Origin: Powellomyces hirtus
Lineage: Eukaryota > Chytridiomycota > Chytridiomycetes > Spizellomycetales > Powellomycetaceae
Direction: 5' to 3'
Length of the DNA stretch: 64,000 nt
NCBI GenBank assembly: GCA_025526995.1
Contig: JAHLKG010000006.1
Coordinates: forward strand, 1 to 64,000
This document shows positions 5,623 to 62,385 of the stretch, one piece after another. Each line of letters begins with the position of its first letter. Within the stretch, counting starts at the first letter, position 1. The translations under genes and the position numbers were made by a program. The notes below the pieces were generated by a model. The model did not search any database, was not told the origin of the DNA, and saw only the letters and a program-made list of their open reading frames with translations.

Positions 5623-8600
5623 CTAGGGTCTGATGACTACACGAATGTATGGGACTTCCACCTGAACAACGGACGGAGATGCTTCGTTAGCGGCTGAGTT
5701 TACCAGCAGCAAGCCTGATTACGCATCACTTACATCCTCTCCCTCGCGATCGTTGACGCACGACTCGATGACCAGAGCGCGGACATGGGGCGGGACCGGC
5801 TTCTTGGAGATGCTCTCAACGATTCTCGAGATTCTACAGACCCGCCATACATGAATATCGCCAAAGTAATAACCATGCGATGTGGTGGGTAACTTACGGC
5901 ATGCTCATACGCTCCTCCAACTTCTTTTTCGGCATGAAGAATGAGTACAGCATGCTGGCGCCGCAGGAAAGCATCTGGATCTCGAGTTCGTGCCTCTCCT
6001 TGAACAGGGTGATAAGCTCCTGCAGGGTAACATCACCCTCGACGTCGAAGCGATCCCATAGACTGAACTCAATGTCGTGGTACTGCAAATGGATTGGGAG
6101 CGTCATTAGTTGACCTGAATGAAATATTAGGACAATGCAGAGCATACCTTCAGTTTCGGAGCTGCGATGGGCTCCGAGAAGGCAAAGAATGGCAGAGCCA
6201 AGTTGACGAATCCGTTCTTGAAATCATCGATCTTGGCTTTACCCAGAACCTAGATACCAAGCCCATGTTTAGATCAACAAGTTCAAACCCCCAATTACTC
6301 CGTTCTACCGACACTCACCTTGTACAGCTCCAAGCAGACCAGACCAGTGACAAGCGCCGTTGTGGTGGCGATGGCGGGAATGATCTTTCCAGCGATGAAC
6401 TTGGTCTTGTGGCGGTCAGCAAGAGCAATGGCATAGTTGGAGGCTCGCAGGTTGGACGTCGCAGTGATGAAGTCGATGTGGAAGTTGGTGTCGTCATCCT
6501 TCTCAAACTCGACGGGTTTCAGACGGAGGCCGGCCAAGTGGGACGGTGGCGGGAGAGCTTTGATCAGCTCGTCAAGCCCGTCATGGTCTGATTGCAAAAA
6601 TATGTTTAGAATCGGTATTTCCAAAAAAACAAATCCTGCGCGGTCACTTACCAGAGCTTTGTGGTGCGGGAGTCTCGTTCTCCTGAACTTGGATCTTGAC
6701 GCCGGACTTTGGGACAAACTCGGGGACAGTAATACCTTTGAGAATGTCCTTGAAGTACTCCTGGTCAACGCGGCCCCGGATACCATAGTTGTAGGCGTGC
6801 AGGTTGGCAGCGGTAATGATGAAATCCATGTGAAGCGCCTGCGTGTGGAGGTCAGGCAGCTATCCCTTTCCCATCTCTTGAAGACATGTCAAACTTACGT
6901 TGCTGGCATCAAAGATGACCGGATCAGGTGCTCTCTTCGGGCCCGACCAGAATGCGGTTCCGCTGGAGGTAACGGCGTCTTTAGGAAAATTGAACAACAG
7001 CTGCTTGATCTCGTTGCAGAACAGCTCGTCAAACTTGAGACGAGCCCAGAGGATGCATTCCTCGAACAGAGTCGGTTTCTGCGTCACCAAGAAGTTGTAG
7101 ACACTCTCGATAGCCTCTTTCTGGTTTCCTCCCTGACTAAGGGTCTGTTCAACATAGTTTGGCTGGCTGAGGTACAAATTGACATTCTCCGCAGGTTGCC
7201 GGAACAATCCCTCAAACTTGTCGCGAGCCCACTGTTGTAGGAACGAGTTTGTTATTCAAAGTGTGTTACACAAAGAAAGGGAGTTTAAACCACTGCATAC
7301 CTGAATCGTGTGCTCGATGGCATTGGGGAAGTTCTTCAGGGTGCAGATGGGAATAGACTTTTCCGGGGGATCTTGCGAAGAAGAGTAGGATTCTGTCATG
7401 TGCGGAATGATCACCTATAGGCAGAGGCATCATCAGTATCGTATCACGCACAGTGCTGCTTAGTAAAGAAATGCTCATACCTGAGTGTTTCCTTTAGTAC
7501 CCAGAGTGCCAGATTCCACAAGAGGCTTGTGGAAGTATACGCATCGACGATCGACATATTTACGAGCCTCGACGTTGTCCAGCGCGTTGGCGACACCAGT
7601 GAGACCTTCCCAGAAAGTGTCATCAAAAAGATTCTCCGTCTCCGTACCAACACGCTCTTGGAACGCCTTGATTTTGCCATGCACATCTGGGTTCATTCGC
7701 TCAACGGCGGCCGCCGCGCATTCCGACTTCAGCTTCGAGACATCTCCCGGTCGGAAGAGGAACTGCCGGTTCAAGTTGGACTTTTCAATCGAGTCCATGT
7801 CAGTGACGTAGAGCTGGCCTTCCGGGCCAGTGCCGAGACCCATGAGAGCCCAGTTCTTGAGCATCTCGCATCCGATGGCTCCCGCTCCAACGACAAAGTA
7901 CCTGGCATTGGCGATGGTCTTTTGAAACTCAGATCCAAAAACGGCGACTTGTCCATCATATCGGGTTCCGGTGGGTTTGCACGACTCTTCGGTCAGCTTC
8001 AGGTCTTTGGGCAGCGACTCCAGAGAGTCAAAGTAGAGGTACTGGTGAATAGGGTGGAACTTTCCACTGCAGGCTTTGAGAACTTCCTGAGCGACGAGTC
8101 CTCCAATGACAGCCACCATCGGGGTCAGGTCTCCACGAGCTTGGTAAGCGAGCTCTTTGATCAACTTCTCATCGAGTTCGGCTTTTTCAGCAGCACGATC
8201 ATTGATGGCCTTGGCAAGCGCCAAAACCTCAAGAGCGTCTTTCTCATTGCGTGGACGTGGGAGTTCTCCGTTGTGATCTGCAGCGAACCGGTCCAAAGCC
8301 TGGAAACCAATGTGCAACTGGGCTGGGCGGTCGAACTTGGCAAAATCGGTAATCAAGAACTCGGGGTTGGCGAGAGAATCCTTTAGAGACTTGAATTGCA
8401 GAATCTTGGGCATCTTCACTTGCGTGTAGAGACCGCCCGATACGTAAGTTCCAAAGCCGCTAGTGTCGCCGATTTTGAACGTGTACGGTCCTGTAACTTC
8501 GACCTTCCTCGGTGTAATGCCATTCAGTTCCGGCATGCCCACGACTTCAGTGAACGTAACGTAATCTCCATCTTCCAGTCCGTGCCGAGTCTCCTCCAAG

Positions 8601-54102: not shown

Positions 54103-57100
54103 CTATGACGATGCCACGCCCGTAGATCTATTCGCGGCGGCCGCCGCGGCACTATTCGAATTCCTCGTTTCTGACGGGGCCCGGGACCTCACGGGCGTCT
54201 TATCCTCGTCACTCGCCGTCGCTGAGGTTGTCACCGAGCTGCGGGGGACGGAGGAGAGTGCGGGTAAGAACACCTTCCCGCCCGTTTTCGCCGCTGTGAT
54301 TGCTGCCGACGACGATGGCGTTAGGTGCGGGGAACTCGGTCCCGATCCAGCGTAGTCGCTGGAACTCAGGGTGGAACCGGTCCCCGCTATCGACCGTCGT
54401 CGACCCGAGAGTGCGCGCGCTGCACTGTCGGCCGTGTATGCTTTCTCCCACGGTGCTGTGTTTGGGGGCGTGAGTGGCGGCGCGTGGTACGTGTTGTAGT
54501 GGTGGTGCGAGTGGTCCGACGTCCAGCTCGTAACACTGCCCCCCGACGACGATTTTTGCAGCCGCGCGAGAGGAGCGGGAGGAGGACCGGGCGAGGATTC
54601 GCCTTGGCGTGGGACCCCACTTGCGCTGTTGGAGTGTGGTTGGGTCGTTGGGGGTCCCATGCCGGTGCGAAACACGTGCGGGCTACTCATCCTCCGCCCC
54701 ACTGGATCGCGTTTCCCAATAAACCCCATCCCCGCCGCCTTGGCTGCCACCAGGTCCCCTGCCCCTCCGGCACCACCACTACTCGCTCCATCTTCCACGA
54801 TCGGAGGTGTCCCCCTCGGTTGCGGCGTAAAAGGCGGGGTCGACGGCGCCGTGATCTGAAAATCCTCGCGTTCATCCTCGGGCGGAGCGGGGAACACGGG
54901 GGTCGCGTCCGGTTTATCCAAGATGGATTCCCAGTGGCTCCGGTTCAACGCGATCATTTCCATGCATTTGCGCGAGAAAGGCGTTTGGATGCACTGGCTC
55001 CACGAATCAAAGAGGGGAGTGACGAGGATGTCGATGAACCCGATTTGACATTTGGGGATGTGCGTGTCGTACCGGTCCATGAATTTGGAAACGGGCATGC
55101 CGAGTTTGCGTTCGCGGTCGCCCTGGGTGCCAATAAAAAAAAATAAACACAAGACGGGTCCTCAGTACATGCTCATTGTTCAGAATATAAGAGTTTGGGA
55201 AAAGCGTACCTGTAAAAAGAACTCTTGCATCACCTGGAAGGCCCATTTCCGGGACTGTTCGAGCGGTTTGGCCGAATTGTTGAGATCGGCGCATTTGATT
55301 GCACATTCCAATATCAATCCGCGGTCCGACGATTCTTCCCAGTTGAGCGCGGAGGCAGCAATCTTGCCTTTCAGCTTGTTGATGTAGTGGAAGTGCTGGG
55401 ACATATCTGGTGCAAGCAAACCGAAATACAAAAATGCGGTCATGAGCAACGGTGAAAAAAATGAGTCGTTTGGGCGGTCATTGTGTTTTGGGGGTGTCCG
55501 TACCTGTAGCCACCACCATACTGATGATCAATTTCCGTGACTCGCGGTACTGCTCGTTCGTGAGGCCATCAAACACGTTGGTTTCTGGCCGTTTGGCAAT
55601 CTCGAATGCTTTGGCGGCGTGGTGGAACTCGAGCACCGACATGTCGTTGTAGAAGATGGCGAGTGGGTGCGAGGACTGGACTAGGAAGTTGTTGTTCAGG
55701 CCCTGGGGAGGAAAATGAGAGACATGTGAGTATGCAGATATTTGAAGGAGAGGGTCTTTTATACGTACTGGATGATCAACATCGTGGACAGCACTAGCAA
55801 TGCACGCCGAGAACACCTCCAGCTTTGTGAAATTCGCCGCCATTTTCGGGTCACTCAACAGCAGCATATTTACAGTCTGGAGGACGTCGGCGCCATGCGT
55901 GCTGTTATGGTAGGGCAATGGGTGGTAGGACGCCTCAATCTGTTCAAAAAACAGTCGCAGCTTTGTCTCGTCCAGCGAGAAATGCTGCAACAGGCCCCAA
56001 TGCTCGAGGAGGTGCACGCCGAGGAAATACAGCGGGCGCCCGTTGGTGGCTTCCGCAAGATCGTAAATGTTGAAATCCAGCGTTGTGGATTGTGCAAGGA
56101 GGGCGTTCACCCGTGTCATGTTGAGTAATGGGATTTCCTGCGTTGGACGGGCGATTGGGCGGACGGTGGGATCGTCTCCACTAGCAGGAACACTCGGGGC
56201 GGTGCTGCCGACGGGTGCCCCGCTGGTGTTGGGACCCTTGATTGCAATCATGAGATCCTTCGAGTCCAGCCGGCTTCTCGTAGGGCGGGATTCGCGTTGA
56301 AGCAAAGAATTCTCAATCCAATTCTTTGTATCCGAATCCAACCCCTTGCCCGTTTCATCATTGATAGCGTCAATATTGGACGAAAAGAAATCCGTCGACG
56401 TCAGTGCTTTCATGATAAAATCAATCTGTATGATCCCGGGGTCCCCCGGCGGGAGGCGGAACTTGAAACTCTGCAGCATATCAATCGTTTTCTTGATCGG
56501 TCCGTCGAGGTTATACCGCGGCCCTGCTTTCGTGCTCGAGTCGCGGAGCGCCGCCGTCAGTTCCGTGTTGGTTTTGCTCAATTTCGCGTTTTCAATGGAC
56601 ATGGACGCTGCAGCCATGAGAGACTGGATCAGTTCCAGCCGGTCGCCCGTGAAGGCACCACTTTGCAAATCGTTTTCGAGGTACACAACCCCCGTGACGG
56701 TGTTTTGATGCATGATGGGGCAACACAGAGTGGATTTCGTCCCCCGTTTGGAGATGTACGGGTCCTTGCCGTACGTCTCGTCCTGCACAGCTTCTACCAA
56801 CACGAGTGGTTCCCGGGTGCGGTACACGTAGTAGATGATTGATAACGGCCCGCCTTCTTCGGCCTTGGCTTCTTCGATTGGGATCTGCTGCAGAACCTGG
56901 TGGCGTTCCTCACCACCTTCCCCAATAATCCCCAACGCCTCAATCAGCAATTTCCCTTCGTGTTGCAACACCAGCAACCCTTTCTCCGCGCCCGCATTTT
57001 CCATCACAAATTTGATAATTTTCGTCAATAGGATCTCCAGACTGGTTTCATTACTCAGACTCTGCGTCGCCTTCAACACCGTCGTCAAATCCAAATCAAT

Positions 57101-60100
57101 CGAATTCGAATCCTGCGCCTCCGTTCCACTCGACCGCTGCGTCGTCCCCAAACTGTGCGAGTATCGGCTCCCCGACGATCCCTTGGTCAGCACAACCAGA
57201 TCCACAACGTCGGGATACTGAGCTTGCAAGTGCTTGCATTTGCCTTCGCTGCCCCAGGAGTGCCACAGCATGTAGGCGTCGTGCAGACAAGACCGCGCAA
57301 GTCGCCGAGACCCTAGTTCGAGCCAGAATTTGCCGTACAGCTCAGTGATGATCGCTTCGTGGAATCGGAAGCCGTGTTCGTGAGCGACATCGAGCGCCGA
57401 GTCGTAGTTTTGGCGGGCACCGTCAGCGTCACCACTAATGCGACACTGTCGAGAAAAATAGAGAGAAACAACAGATCAGAACCAATCTCACACAAACATC
57501 TTCTCGTACAATGGTCGCGGCACCCACCCGCTCTGCTGCAATGATGAGGAATTTGCATTTGATCTCCTCAGGCGGCTCTGACGAAAACATCTTGACCTTC
57601 TTGTACGCTACGTCCATCTCCTGCATCAGTCGCTCCTTGTCCTGGTCCGGCAAATTGTATTCGGACGCGGCAATCAGTGCTTGGAACACGTACACATCGA
57701 TGAATCTGGGGAAAACAAAGAATGGCAGGATAACGCGGTATGTCAGGGTAATTTATACAAAATTCCAAGAAACACTCGAAGTTTTACCATACCTGGGAAG
57801 ACCAATGTACGCATTCATCGTATCGTCATTCATGTACTGCTCTAGAAGTGCGCGCTTGTCTTCTCGATCGTAAAGAAAGGCGTTCACCAGACGGTAGTAG
57901 TACACCTGCGCACGGCTCATGCCCGTTGCCATCACGTCTCGGTTCTGGAACACGCACAAACCCCCATTGGCAATTGCCTCCAGCTCAGCCATGGTGCCTT
58001 TCCACACGTTCAAAAAGTATCCCTTGAACTGCTCCATAAACTGCCGATAGCGGGTTTCCCAGTCCTTCCAAGCCGAGACGGGACGGCCATACGACAGCAA
58101 AATCCCGGGCCACGCACACATGGCGTAGATGATGACCGAGTAGTGCGCAGACTCCATACCCGCAATGATGCATTTTTCGACATTGTCCTCAAATTCCCGG
58201 AAGGAGGACACGTACACGTATCCATTTAGCATCAACCCGAGTCGCGCCCGTGATTGGATCTCGGGCGGTGCTTTCTCGAGTAGCTGAAATACCAGCCGTG
58301 CTATCCACCGCATCCGCGCGAACTGGGGACCCCCTTCAGCGGCGGTGTACGTTCGCAGCACGTGAGAAAATAGCACGGCGCTTTGAGCCCCGAGACCGTT
58401 CTGCAGTGCCAGAAGGCAACCCTTCATGTAGAAGTACTGGGCGAGAGAAAATCGTCCCAGAGATGACGCCGCACCCCCGACGAAAATCAGCACCGTCTCG
58501 AGCATCCGTGTTGTTACTTCGCCGATCTTTAAGCTCCCAGCGATTTCCTCCACCGAGGTATTTCCCAATATGCTTTCGAGAACCGCCCACTCTTCCTTGG
58601 CCAGCCTATCCGCATGACTTTCCGTCTCGGGCGCCCGAATATTAAATACCTCAAGCTCCTTCATTCCCATCTCAAGGATATCGTTGAACAGTCCCTGAAT
58701 GTAGCATGAACTGACGAGAATACTTGTAGCGGTCAGCTGGTCGGTAATCGAGCGGGCGCGGTGGGACAGATCCTTAAGCACCACATTAGCCTGATCATAC
58801 GCGCTCTCCACGATGCAGACCTGCGCGATTGCTTTCTTGATATTGAACAGCAAGTCGTAATGCGCATCCCACGCAGCAGCCTTCGCGACCGGGTCGCTCG
58901 GTTCGACTAGTGAAAGAGCGGTATCCAGCATCCGCCGCGCTGCGCTGTGGGTCCCAGACCGCTTGACCCGCATTGCCGCTTCGTAGTTTAGTTGGGCGAC
59001 GTAGACGCGTTCTTCATCGTCCGTCAGTAGGTCTAATACTTTGTTGTATTGGATGACCAGCACGAACACGTTTTCGTGCATCTCTTCTTCGGAAAGGTTA
59101 CGCCGGACTAGCCGCGCGATTTGCAGATGGAGTGATTTGCGCCGGCTTTCTTCGATCATGTCGTAGCAGGATTGATGCAGCCGCGAATGACAGAACTAAT
59201 TAAAAAAGGCGCTGCAATGAGTGCCAACGGAGAATGACATGAGTTTCTGTCAGGGAGTGGCGCTTAGCATACCTTATAAGACATGACCATTCCACCAATG
59301 GACCTGTTAACTAACGATAGTGACGAGCGGTGGCCATGTCTGCTGGTTGTATTGTGGCTGCTAATAGAGCCGGAAGAGCTCCGTGAAAGAGCCGACACGG
59401 TTCGAAAAAGCGATGCATCGTGCGACTGTGGAAGGAGAAATCCCTCCTTTACGGCCGCCCACAGATGTGTCGCAACTTGCACAATGCTCTGGTCTGCGAG
59501 GAAGGACAGTAATCGCAGATCGAAAGTGTCACCGATACATGCTGTGGGAAGCAATGAGGCACATCAGTAATCTGAACTGTATACCCTTTCTCCTACATCG
59601 AGAAAGAAGTGACGGAAAGGCAATTACCAGCCTGCTGTAATAGCGTCTGCGTGTCGGCCGGAAACTGCCTCAACCGCGTAAGCAGCAGGTCCGCCACACT
59701 CTCGCTAAGCACCGTCTGCCTATCCAGTTCCTGGATATCCCACGCCCAACCCGCCGCTATATCATCGAAATAAATGAGGGAGCTTTGTTCAGCGTATCGA
59801 AGAAACTCGCGGATGTGGAATGGGTTGCCCATGGTTTTGCGGTATAACAGTTGCGCCAACAGGTCAATGTCCTCTGCCGCGGGTTTGAGCGTATCGGCCA
59901 GCATCTCCCGCAGACCCGACATGGGTAGCGGCCCGAGCTCTATGCGTCGTAACCGCTGCGGGGCCTCGAATTGGATCCGTTGAACGGTGGGGCCGTACGC
60001 GTTGGACAGAGCCCCGTCGGCGTGTGGTTGAGTCGCAACGATCAGGAGGTGGGCGATCTTTTTGTCGAAAAGCACGGTTTGGAGTAGCTTCTGCGATGCG

Positions 60101-62385
60101 GGTTCCGCGTACTAACATTCAAGAGAAATGAGTCGTAAGCCATCACAATGGAAATGAGAGAAAACAAAACAGGATGAGTACCTGCAAATCATCCAAAAAC
60201 ACCACCAACGGATGCTCCGCCTTCGCAAAGCATCCAATCAGGGCCTGCATTGCTCTGATGAAAGTGTTCTGTTCAGCAGATGTGGAGTCGATGCGAGTCG
60301 AGTCCAAGTTCTCCTGTGGACCAACAATCATTTCCAAATTCGGGAGGACGTCGGTGACAATAGCCATGTAAGCGGCGCCGAGCGCCGTCGTCAGCTCGTT
60401 CTGCCACTTTTCTAACACGTGCGCGGGCTCGCCTAGCAGTTGACGAATCAGCATGTCGAGCGCTTGCACGAGACCGCCGTATGGACGGTCGCGATTATAT
60501 TGTGTGTATTGGCCATGCACTATATCGCCATCGACGAGTCTCGTTAGTCTTTGCTCTCATCACCAATGTAGGGAGGGGTTTGTGACATTCTCACCCACCA
60601 AAAAAGCCTCTTCGGCCCATGACATGCTTTCTCAGATGATTGATCAAAGAGCTCTTGCCCTCCCCGCTGCTTCCACACACCAGACAGAGTTCGCTACGGG
60701 ATTTGCCAACAGCAATGTTCTCATAAGCAGTAGTGAGTTCCTGGGTCTCGCGCTCACGACCATATAATTTGTCCGGAACGTTGATGTGCGGTGAATGGTC
60801 GCGTGCTCCGACCTGGAGCTTGAAATTGGAGAACGCCTCCGCAACTGCAGCGTCTGATAGACGATTGATGTTCTGCTCGGCACGCGCCCGCTGGAGGTGA
60901 TGCAGACATTGCATGAGGTCGTAGCGGAGACCGGAGGCGGATTGGTAGCGATATTCCGGGGCTTTGCTGGCAAGCTGTGCGCGGACGCGAGTACATGAGC
61001 GTGGCGTATTACAACCCTCTGTTCCCAGAGATGGCTCTTCTTACCTTGTCTATGATGTCGGAGAACGCTTGCGGGATCAATGGGTCATGAACTCTTGGCG
61101 ATTCAATCTCCTTCGCAAGATGGGCGTGCACGTATTCCTATTTGCATCATGACATAAATGAAGTTGTGTTATATTTCACCCTTATGGAGAGACCTGCTCC
61201 CATTACAATTTGCACGTACCGTAGCATCGTCGAACTGAAATGGCGGTGCGCCAACAAGAACCTCCCAAAGCGTTAGGCCCAAGCTGTAGAAATCTATAAA
61301 ATCGGAAATCCACGGTTGGTGAGCATTGAGAGGCGCAGGACTCTCCTTGTGGCTGCTGACTTACCAGTGCGATAATCGACGACGCGTTGCATTCGGCCCG
61401 TTTGTTCCGGTGACAAGTAGGCTAGCGTTCCTTCCAAGTAATTGCGCTGGCCTTGGGAGCCCATGTCGGTGACCTCCGCGAGGTTGAAGTCGATGAGCTG
61501 GACACCAATCTGTCCGCCAATGCGTTTGACCACGATGTTGTCCGGGTTGATGTCTTTGTGCATGACTTGCGCGGCATGCACAATTTCAAGGGCTTCCGCG
61601 AGCTGGACCGCAATGCACAAAAAGTCATCCAGACCGATCTGGCGCGTGCGTGGCGGCAGTATGGTAGACGTTGATGGGGCAGATTTCTGCGCTGCTGGTG
61701 TTGGTGCAGCAAAGCCACTTGTTGCCAAAGAGGGATCGGTATCTTGTGCACTCCGAGTATCTGGCGGGGTATTTGTCGGTTTTCCGAGAGCAAATTCACG
61801 CAATGACACGCCCTTGTAGTCTTCGAGAATCAGCACATATTGCCCATTGTACTCTTCCAGAGACAATGGCCGAATAATCCGGTCATCTAGACAGCCCTGG
61901 ATAGAGTCGTGGCTCAAACTAGTGCTACGCGGGCGTCGTCCTGATGTTATGGTTGGACGTGGCCCTGCAGGTGGTTGTGGGGCCGGTGTCTGACAGCCTT
62001 GCTCTCCCTTGCTCTCTTCTTTGACCGGCGGCAGGCCGGTCGAGTTTCGGTTTTCACCGCCTTTTGTTCTGCTATATGATGTGGCAGCAGAAGATGGCGC
62101 CGCGTTACTCCCCGGAACAGCGGAATCATTGTTCGCACTGCTGGTACTCCTTGGACCAGTGCGTACACGACCAATGTCTTTCAAATTCGAGTGTATCAGG
62201 TTGAGGAGCTCAAACTCGTGCTTTAGCTTGATGACCTCATCCTCGTCGTAGTACGTATTGCCCTTGCAGATCACAGTTTCGTCAGGATTCGCAAGTCGAT
62301 GCCCGCGCTGGATGACGAGCGACGTGCGATTATTGTAGTGGATCAGTTCCAGACCCCGGTATCCAGGAACGTTTATCGTGTCCAT
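54103..62385 (-). CDS. Kinase-like / AAA ATPase / helical-repeat / GAF / cyclic-nucleotide phosphodiesterase fusion protein
   Basis: Thirteen exons: 62385-61365, 61293-61220, 61137-61045, 60974-60595, 60539-60182, 60111-59628, 59541-59273, 59195-57793, 57705-57510, 57445-55769, 55702-55504, 55406-55210, 55122-54103; 7371 bases, 2456 residues, every phase agrees. Order: (1) protein-kinase-like domain, residues 1-395, with HKDINPDN (about 276-283) in place of HRDxKxxN, IDFNLA in place of DFG, and a large disordered insert; (2) AAA-type ATPase with Walker A GSSGEGKSS (about 497) and Walker B VVFLDDLQ (about 635-642); (3) helical repeats to about 1550; (4) GAF, about 1559-1716 (EKGLLVLQHEG, CCPIMHQNTVTGVVYLEN); (5) class I PDE, about 1860-2190, with YHNSTHGADVLQT (metal/acid His), VHDVDHPGLNNNFL, IKCADLNNSAKP and EFFLQGDRERKLGMP; (6) Ser/Pro tail. 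Parts 1-4 match Mak/Phk-type hybrid histidine kinases; no histidine kinase motifs remain. It should hydrolyse cAMP or cGMP under sensory control. Exon 9 end could also be near 57498. Confidence 0.9.

Follow-up and report, generated by a model that had tools for sequence, protein, structure and literature searches.

The 64,000-nucleotide window analyzed here (contig JAHLKG010000006.1, positions 1 to 64,000, of the chytrid fungus Powellomyces hirtus) carries on its minus strand, between positions 62385 and 54103, a single gene in which the sensory front end of a histidine kinase is followed by a class I cyclic-nucleotide phosphodiesterase (PDE). The encoded protein is probably a one-component sensor-effector, in which a chassis of the serine/threonine kinase-AAA-GAF (STK-AAA-GAF) type has been joined to a linker-PDE cassette, so that a cyclic AMP (cAMP)-type class I PDE replaces the usual HisKA-HATPase-receiver output and no phosphorelay would intervene.

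The gene starts with an ATG at 62385, ends with a stop codon finishing at 54103 and comprises 13 exons (62385-61365, 61293-61220, 61137-61045, 60974-60599, 60519-60182, 60111-59628, 59541-59273, 59195-57793, 57705-57528, 57445-55769, 55702-55504, 55406-55210 and 55122-54103, all on the minus strand). The spliced model, set by hand using splice motifs and domain continuity, measures 7329 nucleotides with the stop and encodes 2442 amino acids, with agreeing phases and GT-AG borders in 12 out of 12 introns. A second model, derived by dynamic programming on codon usage, agreed on the exon plan, but chose different donors for three introns and ended elsewhere (2436 letters). A 5th-order coding model was over-fitted, yielding a poor gene model, and was replaced by a lower-order one, while dynamic programming without coding statistics left an in-frame intron in the PDE, mis-spliced the AAA part and was not adopted. 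The first-pass annotation of this DNA had also proposed 13 exons with consistent phases, which holds, but its total of 7371 bases and 2456 codons exceeds the present model by 42 nucleotides.

The fusion itself is independent of the splicing choice, because the GAF domain, the linker and both PDE metal motifs share exon 10 (55769..57445, minus strand). This exon is one open frame of 559 stop-free codons, which encodes the end of the helical region, the complete GAF, the linker and the start of the PDE up to and including HNSTH and HDVDHP. The 227 codons that lead from GAF to PDE are free of stops in the coding frame, while the other two frames of the same strand contain 7 and 10; equally open stretches were obtained in 32 of 20000 Markov-simulated sequences and at 6027 of 200000 random window positions, true genes included. 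Also, the coding score along exon 10 is positive solely in the coding frame (10 of 10 windows). That the fusion is an artefact, with two genes merged by the gene model or by misassembly, could be argued from its being read from genomic DNA alone and from the splice sites that differ between the two models. Yet the junction lies within a single exon that shows coding statistics in no other frame and sits 56 kb into a contig of 1.29 Mb, and therefore neither splicing choice nor contig edge creates the fusion; we regard an artefact of this kind as extremely improbable. A misjoined gene model, already thought unlikely in the first-pass annotation, is rejected on the single-exon junction and the coding statistics, and the fusion of chassis and PDE in one gene is confirmed.

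Four Pfam domains, all above cut-off, were recovered from the N to the C terminus. The first is the Pkinase match of the kinase-like domain (residues 257-410, E-value 1.7e-21; 60933..61617, crossing introns), where a motif scan found HKDINPDN and DFNLA. It is followed by AAA_16 (residues 465-659, 3.5e-29; 60037..60770, crossing introns), with a Walker A motif GSSGEGKSS at residue 497 and a Walker B motif VVFLDDLQ at residue 627, and by GAF (residues 1548-1696, 6.4e-12; 56594..57040), which is also supported by bacterial identities and by the predicted structure. The last is PDEase_I (residues 1924-2149, 1.1e-81, 274.5 bits against a cut-off of 24.8; 54985..55912, exons 10-13), with YHNSTH at residue 1924, HDVDHPG at 1966 and CADLNN at 2076. 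Between AAA_16 and GAF lies a long helical region (approximately residues 886-1500; 57182..59195) that has no Pfam match of its own and was delimited by co-linearity with the host's own hybrid histidine kinase and with bacterial relatives; it may be TPR-like. A signalling helix and helical linker (approximately residues 1697-1830; 56192..56593), recognized from the predicted structure and linker comparisons, connect GAF to PDE, and the protein ends in a tail that by eye is of low complexity and rich in Ser and Pro (residues 2150-2442 and stop; 54103..54984). No Pfam match to HisKA, HATPase_c or a receiver was found anywhere in the 2442 residues, and the search for a histidine-kinase remnant between GAF and PDE gave none by Pfam. 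Thus, the front end of the fungal group X kinases (kinase-like, AAA_16 and GAF) is present and their output absent by the same profiles. Both the domain order and the three PDE motifs of the first-pass annotation are recovered by these searches.

Comparison of the PDE part with the PDB (best 60 of 151 matches) ranked PDE4D first (E 4.5e-68), followed by PDE4A, 4B and 4C, an entry titled 'Phosphodiesterase', PDE8A and PDE7A, all ahead of PDE3A/3B and PDE1B. In residue-level alignments, all made against PDE4D, both His of YHNSTH, the HD of HDVDHPG, the Asp of CADLNN and the Asn three residues later are retained, as is the Gln of CQIGFID; these residues presumably have the metal-site and invariant-Gln roles of their PDE4D counterparts. 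By this alignment the active-site residues are intact and the PDE activity is probably cAMP hydrolysis, the family resemblance suggesting a preference for cAMP rather than cGMP. PDE8-like enzymes carry a receiver-like/PAS N-terminus; neither a PAS nor a PDE8 N-terminal domain was matched by Pfam in this protein at E-values up to 0.001. The P. hirtus genome (G000; 29.3 Mb in 60 contigs) holds 16 class III cyclase matches, counted by exon, and cyclic-nucleotide signalling is therefore likely in this host; HATPase_c matches, counted in the same way, number 39, two of them below cut-off.

The nature of the chassis is indicated by a canonical hybrid histidine kinase encoded elsewhere in the P. hirtus genome (L025, contig C8). 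In its predicted protein the kinase-like, AAA, helical and GAF parts come first and the H-box, HATPase and receiver motifs after them, with the HATPase_c match confirmed by profile search. The PDE protein is 29% identical to this kinase and co-linear with it to the end of the GAF. Probing the genome with the helical region revealed at least two copies, the PDE gene and the hybrid kinase being the only ones among the matches listed, and in tblastn searches of the examined host loci with the whole model the upstream chassis parts were matched together only in these two genes, in addition to a lone weak kinase match in L026. Relatives of the chassis are also encoded by at least 570 of 581 pattern-matched stretches from GTDB genomes, and in the best 80 bacterial loci, mostly cyanobacterial, the match is confined to residues 141-1713 of the PDE protein. 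With 38 bacterial rows the GAF piece shares 26-42% identity, which disfavours an animal-type origin of this domain. Sequence comparison thus assigns the chassis to the STK-AAA-GAF histidine kinases, as the first-pass annotation had claimed.

Motif counts in the bacterial kinase-like domains (89 rows examined, of which 20 escaped capture by pattern) gave HKD in 69 of the 69 captured open reading frames, DFS in 50 and DFG in 19. The kinase-like domain of the PDE protein retains HKD, PDN and DF, with DFN in place of DFG; given that the family often departs from DFG, this substitution is in keeping with it, and catalytic activity appears doubtful. An active Ser/Thr kinase phosphorylating its own PDE or tail, and thus control by phosphorylation instead of through a helix, would agree with the retained HKD, PDN and DF and with the Ser-rich tail seen by eye. 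However, the DFN replacement, the predominance of DFS in the bacterial frames and the degenerate-looking copy in the host's hybrid kinase (HKN, DF missing, in the predicted model) make such a scheme quite improbable. The affected site of that hybrid kinase is at an exon junction, and its kinase-like domain looks more degenerate than that of the PDE protein.

In order to survey the outputs carried by this chassis, the region after the chassis match was taken from the best 80 bacterial loci, 79 of which were scanned (L106, with a tail of 8 residues, was left out, and the L103 tail is probably in the wrong frame). HATPase_c was found in 66 tails, SpoIIE in 5, Guanylate_cyc in 3, STAS in 2 and EAL in 1, together with GGDEF. 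PDEase_I is not among the 25 commonest of the 89 families in these 79 tails, and the HDxxHPG motif occurs in none of the 80 tails scanned for it. Also, PDEase_I was not found in any of 44 distinct bacterial genomes (sets of 22 and 23) that carry 47 of the best 80 loci (L134 was left out), although 14 control genomes gave zero likewise, so that zero alone is no proof of absence; run on the P. hirtus genome, however, the same search gave 20 matches. Class III cyclase outputs follow the STK-AAA-GAF chassis in Spirulina, Symploca and Thiomargarita (L092, L097 and L119). Judging from these predicted proteins, coupling of this chassis to outputs other than a kinase, cyclases included, already occurs in bacteria, and the output swap is less unprecedented than the first-pass annotation held. 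The survey and the PDEase_I search together indicate that the PDE protein combines a chassis that has several bacterial outputs with an enzyme that was not recovered from the bacterial genomes searched.

Structure prediction of the GAF-linker piece with AlphaFold (44 rows) gave a mean predicted local distance difference test score of 80.9, with the GAF at about 90 or more. The last GAF helix extends to 40 residues (160-199 of the piece, 1679-1718 of the protein) and is followed by linker helices of lower confidence. Among the 50 Foldseek matches listed, the best is a GAF-containing HD-GYP protein, and others are bacterial GAFs, phytochromes and the GAF parts of PDE2A, 5A, 6 and 10A; a sequence search of the PDB with the GAF matched only the HD-GYP protein and PDE10A. 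The GAF could, on this account, be a cyclic-nucleotide feedback site as in PDE2/5/6/10, with the kinase/AAA part as mere scaffold of a cAMP/cGMP-autoregulated PDE: the layout of GAF-PDE coupling is the same, a cAMP-bound GAF, Lcd1, also appears among the Foldseek matches, and PDE10A is one of only two sequence matches. Against this, the GAF identities to the bacterial chassis rows tie the domain to the kinase chassis, and the NKFDE-type motif, which is the cyclic-nucleotide motif of the tandem GAFs in enzymes of the PDE2/5/6/10/11 kind, was not found in the protein by pattern; Pfam detects one GAF stretch, not a tandem. Cyclic-nucleotide feedback is accordingly an unlikely account of this GAF.

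For the sensor-effector reading, the simplest mechanism would be that of a dimer in which the chassis works on the catalytic pair through a helix, as in other GAF-coupled enzymes. The protein would be cytosolic and dimerize via the GAF and its long exit helix, and the N-terminal modules would sense an input that alters this helix, thereby raising or lowering cAMP hydrolysis. The first-pass annotation had suggested that the chassis is wired to cAMP/cGMP breakdown; one gene with the chassis and an intact class I PDE supports this in part, but the motifs it invoked speak for an active site and not for sensory control. Group X fungal kinases have been tied to oxidative stress in passages of one report (PMC4965123), which suggests oxidative stress as a candidate input.

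As for its origin, the gene probably arose when a chassis, cut just past the exit helix of the GAF, was joined to a linker-PDE cassette resembling the one in another of the genome's PDE genes. This nearest paralogue, on contig C34, is 50% identical over 61 residues, with the linker in line at 30% (20.4 bits). In pairwise tests the linker of the PDE protein scored 93 with that of C34, a value reached by none of 1000 shuffles and well above the best of 80 control pieces (39). The PDE gene on C28 scored 51 (1 of 1000 shuffles as good), that on C9 scored 39 (4 of 1000), level with the highest of the 80 controls, and that at C6:159k scored 34 (39 of 1000), inside the control range. The data fit attachment of a C34-like linker-PDE cassette to the chassis after the GAF helix.

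Several points weigh against the sensor-effector reading or parts of it. The preference for cAMP over cGMP was judged from family resemblance, part of the splice sites is uncertain between the hand-set and the codon-usage models, and the gene is known here from the sequence of one genome alone. The Foldseek query-normalized template modelling scores are just 0.35-0.46. Also, when linkers alone were used in tblastn at E-values up to 5, C34 was missing from the matches listed for the linker of the PDE protein, the matches were at chance level and the best non-self one was an unrelated locus (E 0.11); since this search missed C34, kinship of the linkers rests on the pairwise shuffle test and on co-linearity.

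The C34 paralogue (G000:C34:95093-100517; L031:2094-7518) seems, by eye, to begin like a signal peptide and to continue with a long part of extracellular appearance and a transmembrane helix ahead of its linker and PDE, and is perhaps a receptor-type membrane PDE; a search for sensor domains gave no Pfam match of any kind in 6 of 6 pieces. Hydrophobic, membrane-like stretches were also seen by eye just 5' of the linker and PDE in the genes on C28 and at C6:159k (L030:4253-5122 and L032:3764-4426).

A free quick tree of 82 rows placed the chassis of the PDE protein apart from that of the host's hybrid kinase and near Acidobacteriota and Myxococcota rows. This placement is what would be expected had the chassis been acquired from bacteria separately, perhaps with a non-kinase output already, and the PDE added later. 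However, both fungal sequences are on long branches, the hybrid kinase is the sole eukaryotic reference, and in 47 rows selected from the 82, holding both chassis together gave a log-likelihood 25.11 above that of the free search, with a p-value of 0.765 in the approximately unbiased test. The separate bacterial origin suggested by the free tree was thus not upheld and seems very improbable, a common origin of the two chassis being more likely from these alignments.

Fungal group X hybrid histidine kinases (Chk1, Mak2/Mak3 and Phk-type), whose front is STK-AAA-GAF, share with the PDE protein a kinase-related domain, AAA, helical region and GAF in the same order, but differ from it in their output, the PDE protein having a PDE instead of any HisKA, HATPase_c or receiver match. 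The bacterial STK-AAA-GAF cyclases have the same chassis, with the GAF shortly ahead of a cyclic-nucleotide enzyme; they should make the messenger, whereas the PDE protein should destroy it, and the catalytic domains are unrelated. The animal PDEs regulated by GAF (PDE2, 5, 6, 10 and 11) resemble it in the succession of GAF, exit helix and class I PDE, but unlike them it has a single GAF of the kinase-chassis type and a PDE domain closer to PDE4/7/8. Dictyostelium RegA, a receiver joined to a class I PDE, likewise couples two-component parts to cAMP breakdown, but as the end of a phosphorelay; the PDE protein gave no receiver match and unites sensor and PDE in one chain. Sections of PMC4965123 describe control of a cyclic AMP pathway by a phosphorelay in amoebae, and count GAF and a domain related to serine/threonine kinases as sensor domains of fungal histidine kinase groups. 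In the accessible portions of a paper on histidine kinases of early-diverging fungi (PMC5285503) the word 'phosphodiesterase' is used once, to spell out GAF. No paper on this architecture was found in the open-access literature searched, from which it does not follow that it is unpublished.

Radial-spoke matches are present in the host genome, and the organism is therefore probably flagellated. It is conceivable, if somewhat doubtful, that the protein belongs to a receptor family conserved among zoosporic fungi, which would reduce cAMP directly upon a group X-type stress cue, without phosphorelay, as a catabolic mirror of the bacterial chassis-cyclase proteins. One protein would couple a histidine-kinase sensor front end to a simple enzyme read-out, making the input of the chassis testable through cAMP hydrolysis, and a familiar sensor would appear wired to a different internal signal. 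The protein also shows that the outputs of the chassis are modular in a eukaryote, just as they are in bacteria, and could provide a direct link from sensing to cAMP in flagellated fungi.

Two further observations were made in the host genome. At G000:C5:1439865-1440925 a GAF sharing 27% identity with the one in the PDE protein lies directly ahead of class III cyclase matches, possibly forming a GAF-cyclase gene. Also, histidine-kinase matches with identical scores and frame lengths occur near contig ends at G000:C16:2064-2402 and G000:C43:32003-32341, a pair that could reflect duplicated or allelic contig ends.

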